Of a DNA stretch of 64,000 bases, positions 19,506-35,796 are shown one piece after another. The position numbers were made by a program, and so were the translations under genes. How positions within the stretch are numbered: the stretch's first letter is position 1; each line of letters opens with the position of its first letter. The stretch comes from Prochlorococcus sp. AG-347-I06 (GTDB taxonomy: Bacteria; Cyanobacteriota; Cyanobacteriia; PCC-6307; Cyanobiaceae): positions 62,001 through 126,000 of the forward strand of contig QCBM01000004.1 of the NCBI GenBank assembly GCA_003281605.1, given 5' to 3'. The notes under the pieces are model-generated. The model worked only from the letters and a program-made list of their open reading frames with translations. It was not told where the DNA came from and made no database searches.

Positions 19506-19618
19506 TTTAGGAAATATTAAAACCTTATTTATACTATCTATATCAATAGTAATTTTTTTGAGAAAAATTTAGTAAAAATTACTCTCGCAGAATTTTTTCA
19601 AAGATGTTATTGTTCATT

Positions 19619-19672
19619 TACGTTCATCCAAGTTTATATCTCTGGACGCATGAAATGGGAGTAGGGAACGGG
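19619..19672 (+). ncRNA. glutamine riboswitch, Downstream-peptide motif type
   Basis: The segment has the layout of the glnA/Downstream-peptide aptamers of marine cyanobacteria. P1 is CGTTC (19621-19625) paired with GAACG (19666-19670). The conserved ATCC follows P1. An inner TCC/GGA stem closes a variable loop, and GGACGCATGAAATGGGAGTA is the purine-rich core. These aptamers bind L-glutamine and are found before glnA, gifB-type genes or short peptide genes. Here a 56-codon gene begins 24 nt after P1. Recognised from memory of the motif, without a covariance model. Confidence 0.7.
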
Positions 19673-19695
19673 ATTCTCATTAACTGCACAAGACC

Positions 19696-30040: not shown

Positions 30041-30092
30041 TATTAAAAAAAGAGTCTGGCTAACTCGCTAGTCTAACTTTGTTTTAAAGAGT

Positions 30093-30140
30093 CAGGGCGC
30101 CAGGATTCGAATCTGCGACCTAGTGCTCCCAAAACACCGC
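30093..30140 (-). repeat. tRNA-Pro 3' fragment 1 (attachment-site remnant)
   Basis: It matches the 3' part (anticodon arm to acceptor end) of the intact tRNA-Pro at 35724, with about four differences, and then departs. Terminator-like sequence of the tRNA gene also persists on its low-coordinate side. It is the most diverged of three copies, hence probably the oldest junction. Confidence 0.85.
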
Positions 30141-31162: not shown

Positions 31163-31459
31163 ATGGATTTCAGGATTTTACTTGTTATTGTCCCAATAAT
31201 ATTCTCATGGATATTTACAGTCTTTTGGTTAGGTAGGTGGGATGTATTTAGATTAACGCCACTAGGATTACCAAAGAGGGGAGTAGCTCCTTTTAAAAAT
31301 TATCAAGTATGGGAAGATTCAGCATTAATTCCTGCTACTGGTAGACCAGCAAGAGGTTATCCAGTATTTACTGTAAGAACCGCAGCAGTCAATGCCCTAG
31401 GGATTCCAACCGTTTTTTTCCTTGGAGCAATATTGGCAATGCAGTTTAAAACTTATTAA
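31163..31459 (+). CDS. small membrane protein, 98 residues
   Basis: Helix 1 [20 protein letters not shown], a conserved-looking loop ([15 protein letters not shown] and [15 protein letters not shown]), and helix 2 [16 protein letters not shown]. The start MDFRILLV is shared with the next gene (MDIRFLIV). The style of the first helix recalls small photosystem II subunits, but I cannot assign it to one. Cargo of element A. Confidence 0.6.
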
Positions 31460-31791: not shown

Positions 31792-31874
31792 GCAATAATT
31801 TCATAAAATATTAAACACTTATTTGTATAAAATTAATCTTCCTGTATTTTAAAACTCATTATATAAATATATAA

Positions 31875-31993
31875 GTAGATATTAGGGCAATCTACTAACC
31901 GCTAGCTTTGATAAAGCGGGTCGTAATGAGAACCTCCCTTTGACCTCATTTTCTTTTTCGCAATCTTAGAAAATGAGGTTTAAATAATTTTTA
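31875..31993 (+). ncRNA. structured RNA 1 of a homologous tandem pair
   Basis: It begins GTAGATATT, then GGGCAATCT. AGGG (31884-31887) pairs with CCCT (31936-31939), enclosing a CCGC/GCGG hairpin and the sequence AATGAGAACCT. It ends with an 11-bp perfect stem, ACCTCATTTTC with GAAAATGAGGT (31943-31979), and a T-rich tail. There is no ORF. The layout and several blocks match RNA 2 at 32107. Confidence 0.65.
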
Positions 31994-32106
31994 ATAGTCA
32001 GGAATATTCAAGTTAATTTTCTATATAAATCCAGTCATTAAATTTTATTCATGATTATGTATATTATTTACTTTTAAAAAAAGAGTTTTTTATTTATAAA
32101 GAATAT

Positions 32107-32220
32107 GTAGATATTTGGCGAATCTGCAACGGTATAGATTCCGTCTTTATGAACCTAGCCAACGAAAATATTCTTAACTACGTTTTAGTTATTTTAGTAG
32201 TTAGGAATATTTTTATTTTA
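32107..32220 (+). ncRNA. structured RNA 2 of a homologous tandem pair (possible leader of the gene at 32245)
   Basis: It begins GTAGATATT, then GGCGAATCT as in RNA 1. TTGGC (32115-32119) pairs with GCCAA (32158-32162). Inside, ACGG/CCGT (32129-32144) competes with GAATCT/AGATTC (32120-32141), so two folds are mutually exclusive. ATGAACCT corresponds to ATGAGAACCT in RNA 1. A 15-bp stem with one G-U (32167-32211) followed by T-rich sequence ends it, 25 bp before ATG 32245. It could be a riboswitch or attenuator, or a stand-alone small RNA. Confidence 0.65.
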
Positions 32221-32244: not shown

Positions 32245-32658
32245 ATGATCAATAAATCACAAAAAGTATCCTCATTAGAAAATATCTACAACAATTTGGA
32301 ATCTGGCATGCCCGAGAATAATTCTATTAAAGACTATGCTCTACCTAATGCGAGACAGTGGTTAGGTGGAAGATATGTAGCCCTTTGGGTATTACCTATT
32401 TATTTAATTGGAAAAATTGCAAAATTCTTAGCCTCCTCTGCTTTTATAAAACCATATTCACCAATTAGTAATGGCCCTTCTTATAAAAGACCAGAAACTT
32501 TGTACACCTCTTTAAAAGGTGTTTTTAAAGGCGAAGACCATTTAAGATTTTTTGATCATAGGTTTATCGCTATTTGGGTATTGCCTATTGCTTTAACTGG
32601 AATTGTTTTTGAAGTGCTTTTTATATCGCCCACTAAGAATACTTTCCCTTTTAATTAA
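32245..32658 (+). CDS. membrane protein with an internal duplication, 137 residues
   Basis: Two similar segments, GRYVALWVLPIYLIGKIAKF (about residues 41-60) and HRFIAIWVLPIALTGIVFEV (about 104-123), each a membrane helix with WVLPI. The linker contains YKRPETLYTSLKGVFKGED. The duplication suggests a two-helix protein arisen from one unit. It directly follows structured RNA 2 and ends element A. Function unknown. Confidence 0.65.
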   Translation: MINKSQKVSSLENIYNNLESGMPENNSIKDYALPNARQWLGGRYVALWVLPIYLIGKIAKFLASSAFIKPYSPISNGPSYKRPETLYTSLKGVFKGEDHLRFFDHRFIAIWVLPIALTGIVFEVLFISPTKNTFPFN

Positions 32659-32685: not shown

Positions 32686-32758
32686 TACATTGAGGACAGG
32701 ATTTAAGCAATAAAAAAGAAAGGCTGGGAAACCCTTCTATGACTCGGATTATTAGAGT

Positions 32759-32807
32759 CGGGGCGATAGGATTCGAACCTGCGACCTAGTGCTCCCAAAG
32801 CACCCGC
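32759..32807 (-). repeat. tRNA-Pro 3' fragment 2 (attachment-site remnant)
   Basis: 49 nt identical to the 3' part of the intact tRNA-Pro except for one base, extending through the anticodon stem-loop. A terminator-like hairpin with a T-run (minus strand) lies on its low-coordinate side, as after the intact tRNA. It joins elements A and B. Confidence 0.9.
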
Positions 32808-33979: not shown

Positions 33980-34014
33980 ATATGTATTAGCTGAGACTTA
34001 CTGCTATAACTGAT

Positions 34015-34059
34015 CGGGGCGACAGGATTCGAACCTGCGACCTAGTGCTCCCAAAGCAC
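34015..34059 (-). repeat. tRNA-Pro 3' fragment 3 (attachment-site remnant)
   Basis: 45 nt with no mismatch to the intact tRNA-Pro, after which the sequence departs inside the anticodon stem. It joins elements B and C. Perfect identity makes it the youngest junction. The 33859-34180 gap holds only this fragment and arm repeats. Confidence 0.92.
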
Positions 34060-34180: not shown

Positions 34181-35560
34181 TTAATTGAACTTGTTGCCAC
34201 AAGAGTTTAACTTCATTTCTAAGGCGTCTAAACCTCCAGGTCTTCTCACTTTAAGTTGTTGCATTATATCAACTATTGAAACAGCAAAATTTAAACCTTC
34301 GCTAGAGGTTTTACCAAATGTATTTACTCCAATAACTTCTCCATTCTCGTTTAAAAGAGGCCCTCCACTATTACCGGGATTTATCGCAGCATCAGTTTGA
34401 ATTAAAGAAGAGCCACTCATAACAATTGAATCAAAGTCACTTCCTGATCTTCTCAAGGCGCTAACAATTCCCCTAGTAACTGTGTTTGACAAACCAAGTG
34501 GAGAGCCTAATGCAACCACATCTTCTCCTGCCATTGGATAATTTGAGTAGCAGATAGGCAAGGCTTTTGGAAGGTCAGTACCCTTGACATCAATGATCGC
34601 AAAATCATCTTCTCTACTTATATATGATACTTTTCCTTTATATTGTCTCCCTGAAACAGTATCAATAAGAATTTCTTTATTTGATGCTCCACTAACAACA
34701 TGCCTATTGGTAAGTAAAGTACCTCCGTCAGTAATAAAAAAACCAGTTCCTTGCCCACTCCCAGCTCTTATAGTAACCACACTAGGAAGAGAGCTTCCGG
34801 CTATTTCTTTAATTGAGGGATTCTTTTTTATGTTTTTTATGTTTATGGCAATCTTTGGTATTTCCCATTTTTTAATTGATTTCTTATAAAGAAGAGATAG
34901 CTTTTCAACAGTTTTTTCTCCTATAGGAACAACAGTGCGCTTTACTCTTATTGATAAACCATCATAGGTTTTTGCGTTTTTGATATCATTTACAAATCTA
35001 TTAGGAAGCATAAATTTGCCATCATCGCCATAAAGAGAATAAGTTTTCCCAGCAAATTTAACTTCTAAAGGGGAAGGTAAATCTCCACCATCTGTCTCAT
35101 AACCTGCAGTGCAAGCTATAAGACCACAACCTGCTTTTAAAGTCCAAATACCTCTTATATAATCTGATGACCACTTTGTAAAAACGGTGGATTCATATGG
35201 ATAACGAAATGTATAATTCCGATCATAAACAACATACTCAGTAGTCCCATCAAAACCAGATGTAGCTTTAACTATCTGACCATAAGGAACTCTGTTTCTT
35301 CTTGGGATTCTGTTCCATAATATGTCACTTTCCATCTCAACAACAGAAAGGCCCGTATCAGGATCAATTAGTTCTTTTCTCTTTGGTCGCCCATCTTTAT
35401 CAACACAATCCTTATGTCTACCTCTATGGACTGGAGATTCACAATTAATTTTCACTGCAAATGCACTTTCTGATAAAGGGGAGAAGGTGGATAGACCCAA
35501 AAAGCTCCCAAAAGAAATTATTGAGATTATTGATTTTTTAAAACGCATTAAAGAAAACAT
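34181..35560 (-). CDS. secreted trypsin-like serine protease, HtrA/S1C type (element C cargo)
   Basis: 459 residues. A signal peptide (FGSFLGLSTFSPLSESAFA) is followed by a Cys-containing N-terminal region of unknown fold (about 40-250) and a trypsin-like domain. The triad is His in TNRHVV, Asp in REDDFAIIDV and Ser in NPGNSGGPLLNENGEVIGVN. No PDZ domain follows, unlike DegP. It probably acts in the periplasm or outside the cell. It is the sole gene between fragment 3 and the intact tRNA-Pro, so it is mobile-element cargo. Confidence 0.85.
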   Translation of the reverse strand: MFSLMRFKKSIISIISFGSFLGLSTFSPLSESAFAVKINCESPVHRGRHKDCVDKDGRPKRKELIDPDTGLSVVEMESDILWNRIPRRNRVPYGQIVKATSGFDGTTEYVVYDRNYTFRYPYESTVFTKWSSDYIRGIWTLKAGCGLIACTAGYETDGGDLPSPLEVKFAGKTYSLYGDDGKFMLPNRFVNDIKNAKTYDGLSIRVKRTVVPIGEKTVEKLSLLYKKSIKKWEIPKIAINIKNIKKNPSIKEIAGSSLPSVVTIRAGSGQGTGFFITDGGTLLTNRHVVSGASNKEILIDTVSGRQYKGKVSYISREDDFAIIDVKGTDLPKALPICYSNYPMAGEDVVALGSPLGLSNTVTRGIVSALRRSGSDFDSIVMSGSSLIQTDAAINPGNSGGPLLNENGEVIGVNTFGKTSSEGLNFAVSIVDIMQQLKVRRPGGLDALEMKLNSCGNKFN

Positions 35561-35700: not shown

Positions 35701-35723
35701 ACTATAACTTGGTTTTTAAGAGT

Positions 35724-35796
35724 CGGGGCGACAGGATTCGAACCTGCGACCTAGTGCTCCCAAAGCACCCGCGCTACCAAGCTGCGCCACGCCCCG
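35724..35796 (-). tRNA. tRNA-Pro (anticodon TGG)
   Basis: A complete cloverleaf: acceptor stem CGGGGCG/CGCCCCG, D-arm GGCGCAGCTTGGTAGCGC, anticodon loop CTTTGGG and T-arm GGTTCGAATCC. CCA is not encoded. It is the integration target of the adjacent elements, whose remnants repeat its 3' part three times. Confidence 0.97.

Follow-up and report, generated by a model that had tools for sequence, protein, structure and literature searches.

A candidate new family of tandem, terminator-ended pseudoknot RNAs preceding a membrane-protein gene in high-light-adapted Prochlorococcus

Two related RNA units that precede a gene for a 137-residue membrane protein were analyzed in a window of 64,000 nucleotides from the 1.52-Mb genome of Prochlorococcus sp. 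AG-347-I06. The reading we favor, with a probability of about one-half, is that they belong to a new, tandemly arranged family of structured small RNAs, in which the last unit (RNA2) would be the leader of the gene and the upstream copies would be paralogous sRNAs. Protein regulators are very few in Prochlorococcus, and the catalogue of its regulatory RNAs comes mainly from strain MED4. If the reading is true, a tandem RNA family that is tied to one gene and present in roughly half of the high-light genomes sampled would constitute a new regulatory unit in a phototroph that ranks among the most abundant.

Organization of the Array

The initial annotation of this locus described a tandem pair of related RNAs that end in terminators, and this was confirmed by the coordinates of the two units (Table 1) and by covariance models that detect each other. 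Both units open with GTAGATATT. A model built from RNA2 only detects RNA1 in its own genome with an E-value of 0.0011 (36.2 bits), and across 100 loci the RNA1 and RNA2 models match each other, with best E-values of 9e-5 and 7e-5. No ORF lies between the tandem paralogues. The upstream neighbors are an ORF of 122 residues on the opposite strand, a long-form paralogue of cytochrome b559 beta, and an ORF of 61 residues.

Table 1. Features of the RNA array and the gene that follows it (window coordinates)
Feature	Position	Strand	Basis or remark
RNA1, terminator-ended extent	31875-31995	+	
RNA1 promoter-upstream element TTGTATAAAATTAATCTTCC, form common to RNA0 and RNA2	31824-31842	+	column conservation, 87 distinct upstream sequences
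RNA1 putative -10-like TATAAA	31862-31867	+	kept in nearly all homologues
RNA1 hairpin P1, GTAGAT[ATTAGGGCA]ATCTAC	31875-31895	+	homologue alignment
RNA1 pseudoknot 5' strand AGGG, in the P1 loop	31884-31887	+	pairs with 31936-31939
RNA1 hairpin P2, ACCGC..GCGG(G)	31898-31920	+	two-sided changes at three of five pairs
RNA1 conserved linker AATGAGAACCT	31925-31935	+	aligned homologues
RNA1 pseudoknot 3' strand CCCT	31936-31939	+	covariation with the P1-loop strand
RNA1 intrinsic terminator, ACCTCATTTTC/GAAAATGAGGT then T-rich tail	31943-31995	+	homologue alignment
RNA2, terminator-ended extent	32107-32220	+	
RNA2 promoter-upstream element TGTATATTATTTACTTT	32058-32074	+	column conservation
RNA2 putative -10-like TATAAA	32095-32100	+	conservation among homologues
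RNA2 hairpin P1, GTAGAT[ATTTGGCGA]ATCTGC	32107-32127	+	100% of cells paired
RNA2 pseudoknot 5' strand TTGGC	32115-32119	+	TTGGC/GCCAA changes to TCGGC/GCCGA
RNA2 hairpin P2, ACGG..CCGT	32129-32144	+	ACCG..CGGT in basal clades, compensatory
RNA2 conserved linker TTTATGAACCTA	32146-32157	+	aligned homologues
RNA2 pseudoknot 3' strand GCCAA	32158-32162	+	covariation with TTGGC
RNA2 intrinsic terminator with a stem of 16 bp and a T-rich tail	32166-32220	+	all pairs kept, one changed on both sides
Unnamed gene, 137-residue two-segment membrane protein	32245-32658	+	constant partner of the array

A third unit of the same plan with its own terminator, RNA0, is found about 200 nt farther upstream in eight genomes, all of them divergent members of the genus from basal clades. 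Given these carriers, the three-unit array may be the older state. In seven loci the RNA0 terminator reads ACCTCCTTTA[CTTGGCATAGA]TAAAGGAGGT or a near variant; its arms resemble an anti-Shine-Dalgarno/Shine-Dalgarno pair, and its loop is almost invariant, which is unusual for a plain terminator.

The three unit types share a promoter-like region with the pattern TGTATAA..TT..CTT at about -50 to -33 relative to GTAGA, followed by TATAAA or TATATA near -13. When 93 distinct loci are compared in pairs, identity reaches 0.90 for RNA1 and 0.91 for RNA2, and 0.81-0.85 for the promoter-like regions. Identity falls to 0.56 in the RNA1-RNA2 spacer and is lowest, at 0.43, in the gap that separates terminator 2 from the gene. 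In one genome (G008) an insertion of 1.4 kb separates RNA1 from RNA2, and both units are intact (L034/L165). The insertion (L165 12214-13099, G008 contig 29) contains an ORF for a Crp/Fnr-like regulator and a second ORF.

Common Fold and Covariation

The core of each unit is a predicted H-type pseudoknot, in which the loop of hairpin P1 pairs with a strand 3' of hairpin P2. In the aligned homologues the plan consists of P1 (GUAGAU[...GGG...]AUCUAC), a P2 hairpin that is variable in both length and sequence and sits inside the long loop of the pseudoknot, a linker, and a closing strand that can pair with the P1 loop. The initial annotation had drawn an outer stem around a small GC hairpin. This pairing corresponds to the pseudoknot helix, which joins the P1 loop to the 3' strand, and it looks like an enclosing stem because a simple fold of a single sequence cannot draw P1 at the same time. 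Each unit is about 110 nt long, and the pseudoknot is separated from the terminator by 3-6 nt in every unit, without overlap.

The linker is conserved across the units in the generalized form GAGAA(CC)U, with GAGAACCU in RNA1, GAGAAUAU in RNA0, and UUUAUGAACCU, UUUGAGAACCU, or UUUGAUAACCU in RNA2. The motif ATGA(GA)ACCT that had been noticed before the closing strand is present in both RNA1 and RNA2. A small ORF in RNA2 beginning with ATGAACCTAGCC was considered and rejected; its ATG is present in 40 of 50 distinct cores and is missing from basal and intermediate sequences, which have, for example, GATAACC or GAGAACC. The changes in RNA2 also track stem pairing, which counts against a coding function.

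The evidence for the fold comes from paired changes among the homologues. In the combined alignment of RNA0 and RNA1, 90.3% of cells are paired compared with 85.1% in shuffled alignments, there are 28 two-sided changes compared with 10.1, and the covariation score is 0.228 compared with 0.140. On each of these three measures the structure outscored all 500 shuffles, a control that ignores shared ancestry. When the structure is slid along this alignment, pairing drops to 41-56%. P2 of RNA0 and RNA1 shows two-sided changes at three pairs, and the last P2 pair of RNA1 is broken in the window genome. The RNA1 pseudoknot AGGG/CCCU is replaced among homologues by AGAG/CUCU, AGGGC/GCCCU, or GGGC/GCCC, and the RNA1 terminator arms become ACCTCACTCC/GGAGTGAGGT in divergent relatives.

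The RNA2 alignment is 100% paired, with two-sided changes in the pseudoknot and in the terminator. Its P1 appears as GTGGGT/ATCTGC in relatives, and its pseudoknot is GGGC/GCCC in basal clades. The long intrinsic terminators described initially are real, and the RNA2 stem carries changes in which A-U is replaced by G-C and U-G by C-G. Covarying stems, which the initial annotation had named as a sign of a genuine RNA class, were thus found in P2, the pseudoknot, and the terminators.

Single-sequence folding of the cores showed no gain over shuffles (z of -0.11 and 0.03), and the low folding energies stem from the terminators and not the cores. The evidence for the core is therefore comparative and not thermodynamic. 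The folding result, together with the confinement of all homologues to one genus-level group, is what would be expected of ordinary terminators embedded in a repeated intergenic sequence that has no RNA function and is kept by close relatedness. This explanation is very improbable in view of the compensatory changes in P2, pseudoknot, and terminators, and of units that are 0.90-0.91 identical versus 0.43-0.56 for the spacers.

Relation of the Core to Termination

A search for alternative pairing between core and terminator found none that is conserved in the three unit types and none beyond shuffles (mean z of 0.04, -0.22, and 0.48); the best core-terminator duplexes differ between the unit types. 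A candidate antiterminator in RNA1, AATGAG/CTCATT, was rejected, as it is lost in the basal clade and shows no excess over shuffles. The switch that the initial annotation proposed for RNA2, in which the helices ACGG/CCGT and GAATCT/AGATTC exclude each other, did not hold up across the family: of 50 distinct homologues, only 9 can form GAATCT/AGATTC. The lack of a conserved alternative pairing speaks against a riboswitch of the classical antiterminator type and favors self-contained RNAs whose end is the terminator.

These results bear on the suggestion, also made initially, that the units form a new riboswitch class, with the H-type pseudoknot serving as a small-molecule aptamer that regulates termination ahead of the membrane-protein gene. 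Several known aptamers, for example preQ1-II, are H-type pseudoknots whose long loop contains a hairpin. The aptamer-like part of the suggestion stands, since the units have such a pseudoknot and a conserved single-stranded linker, and RNA2 does precede a membrane-protein gene. The switching part finds no support, because neither an antiterminator nor the switch helix is conserved. In addition, only one downstream gene is served, the distribution is narrow, the upstream copies control no gene, and every unit has its own conserved promoter-like region and terminator, which is unusual for tandem riboswitches. We consider this explanation unlikely.

Association with the 137-Residue Protein Gene

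The initial annotation placed the RNA2 terminator 25 bp before a membrane-protein gene and asked for repeated placement before similar genes; the terminator does end about 25 nt 5' of the gene, and the same gene follows the array nearly always. A survey of 151 genomes from the genus found the gene in 73 and RNA2 in 72, nearly always together, with RNA2 located 30-110 nt 5' of the gene where both occur. Two exceptions lie at contig ends, one is a pseudogene without the RNA (G408), one is a remnant of 63 nt that lacks the gene (G053), and one has a divergent RNA2 that was found by hand (G413). Another genome (G050) carries a second complete copy of RNA1, RNA2, and the gene elsewhere, duplicated as a pair. 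The array is therefore co-inherited almost one-to-one with the gene.

The 137-residue protein showed no relative in searches of Pfam, NCBIfam, and the Protein Data Bank, and an identity as a PsaJ-like protein was rejected because the searches gave no support for it. The long-form PsbF paralogue upstream (31163-31459, 98 residues, NCBIfam NF002720) is additional to the normal psbF. It has an asparagine at the position that we take to be that of the haem-ligand histidine, and it is absent from the array-less genomes tested, including MED4. It was rejected as a constant partner of the array, as it is missing in one array-bearing genome (G513) and lies elsewhere in three (G477, G479, and G450).

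Low-light relatives have homologues of the gene, 34-43% identical (L083-L086), without any array, so the gene does not need the array. In one damaged array (G409, L178) the 5' half of RNA1 is replaced, P2 of RNA2 is mismatched, and terminator 2 is absent; the gene is intact. The short and poorly conserved gap between terminator 2 and the gene leaves little room for a conserved separate promoter. In several clades the gap is 90-110 nt, which is room for a separate promoter. These wider gaps, the array-free homologues, the damaged array, and the missing antiterminator all count against the leader reading. In the clade of the window the distance to the start codon is only about 25 nt, so read-through from RNA2 would be the simplest route to expression of the gene there. 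From this placement we infer that the last unit doubles as the leader of the gene.

In the mechanism that we propose, each unit would have a promoter of its own, and one shared activator site would govern transcription. RNA2 would form the 5' leader, and the gene would be expressed only by read-through of terminator 2, with the terminator limiting that read-through. The upstream units would be released as sRNAs, and, since they carry the same pseudoknot, they could compete for the partner of RNA2, be it a protein, an RNA, or a ligand. Such competition would determine how much terminated RNA is made relative to the mRNA of the gene.

The same array could instead encode a family of trans-acting sRNAs, in which every unit, RNA2 included, would be a free RNA that uses its linker and pseudoknot to act on a protein or on other mRNAs, and the gene would be a linked neighbor or a co-transcribed passenger. 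That each unit has its own promoter-like region and terminator would fit this, as would the tandem paralogues without an intervening ORF, the missing antiterminator, the survival of both units on either side of the 1.4-kb insertion, and the tandem sRNA precedents Yfr11/Yfr16 discussed in PMC2518516. The near-strict co-occurrence with one gene and the short, poorly conserved gap after terminator 2 speak against it, and we regard it as possible but on balance somewhat doubtful. A more far-reaching version of the leader model, which we hold to be improbable, is that the array represents a new natural class of H-type pseudoknot sensors in two or three copies, where RNA2 would gate a photosynthesis-linked membrane protein in cis and the upstream copies would be dedicated trans decoys of the same partner.

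Comparison with Known RNA Systems

In the preQ1-II, SAM-II/V, and glutamine-II riboswitches, the P1 loop pairs 3' of a second hairpin, and nucleotides of the long loop are conserved. The array units pair their P1 loop in the same manner. They differ in that each copy has a promoter-like region and a terminator and shows no conserved alternative pairing. They also have no Rfam match to such a class at E-values up to 10, although a glutamine-II riboswitch was detected elsewhere in the window.

A scan of the window with Rfam 15 at the gathering cut-off identified Yfr19, two tRNAs, and this glutamine-II riboswitch (19618-19680), and nothing at the array. A permissive scan of the locus to an E-value of 10 gave only unrelated sub-threshold matches, and the divergent arrays had no match at the gathering cut-off. 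The initial remark that neither RNA was recognized as a known cyanobacterial class agrees with Rfam at both thresholds.

Type III toxin-antitoxin arrays (ToxIN, CptIN, and TenpIN) also combine tandem pseudoknot RNAs, a terminator, and one protein gene. Here, however, the units are about 110 nt long with a terminator each and are not short repeats within one transcript, and the gene encodes a membrane protein with no endoribonuclease match in Pfam, NCBIfam, or the Protein Data Bank.

The Yfr sRNAs (Yfr11/Yfr16, Yfr10/Yfr2, and Yfr19) resemble the array in being short, clade-specific, terminator-ended RNAs of intergenic regions or islands, with some members present as related or neighboring copies (PMC2518516). 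They were found in MED4, which has no array, and no Rfam Yfr model matches the units. Within the open-access literature without supplements, Table 1 of PMC2518516 lists no MED4 RNA that fits the locus, and none with the placement or distribution of the array. Yfr103, an RNA of 290-328 nt that occurs in multiple copies in picocyanobacteria, has a conserved sequence at about -58 to -29; it is reported from marine Synechococcus and low-light Prochlorococcus, not from high-light strains (PMC5069720). The array likewise has a conserved upstream sequence in multiple copies, but its units are about 110 nt long and occur only in high-light strains, so that it differs from Yfr103 in length and reported distribution, the two features compared.

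The array raises the question of what purpose is served by repeated, self-terminating pseudoknots with promoter-like regions of their own. It is small enough to be studied in vitro and in a Synechococcus host.

Distribution and Genomic Context

Of 266 genomes from the genus, 128 have homologues of RNA1; among the 87 good genomes the count is 56. In the named collection RNA1 occurs in 73 stretches, each labeled Prochlorococcus or uncultured Synechococcaceae. Outside the genus, models R1, R2, and R3 gave no convincing match among 300 genomes of the family. The best candidate there (E = 0.022 among the 300 genomes) lies 5' of leuA and has no linker, and two others were rejected because they lie inside ORFs. 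As judged from these searches, the family is restricted to the genus-level group that holds high-light-adapted Prochlorococcus.

The MED4 genome was recognized by Yfr19 at complement 1086081-1086162, which is identical to the entry in Table 1 of PMC2518516. RNA1, RNA2, and the 137-residue protein gene are all absent from MED4, so screens based on this strain would miss them.

Partial copies of tRNA-Pro(TGG) are found in the window at 30062-30138, 32754-32807, and 34014-34059, in line with the intact gene at 35722-35796; the first two remnants bracket the RNA array and its gene. Pieces of tRNA-Pro flank the cassette on both sides in at least 21 of 70 named loci, which are short stretches. Such remnants are a likely signature of repeated integration of a mobile element that targets the tRNA gene. 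The array fits the cargo of a tRNA-targeting mobile island, which would explain its patchy distribution. A phage origin was also considered and rejected, as an exact-pattern search of viral contigs gave no match. MED4 (L201) also has several tRNA-Pro pieces. Amid the remnants in the window lies an ORF for a trypsin-like serine protease of 459 residues (34181-35560), and related protease ORFs are found at similar places in two other loci (L163 and L164).
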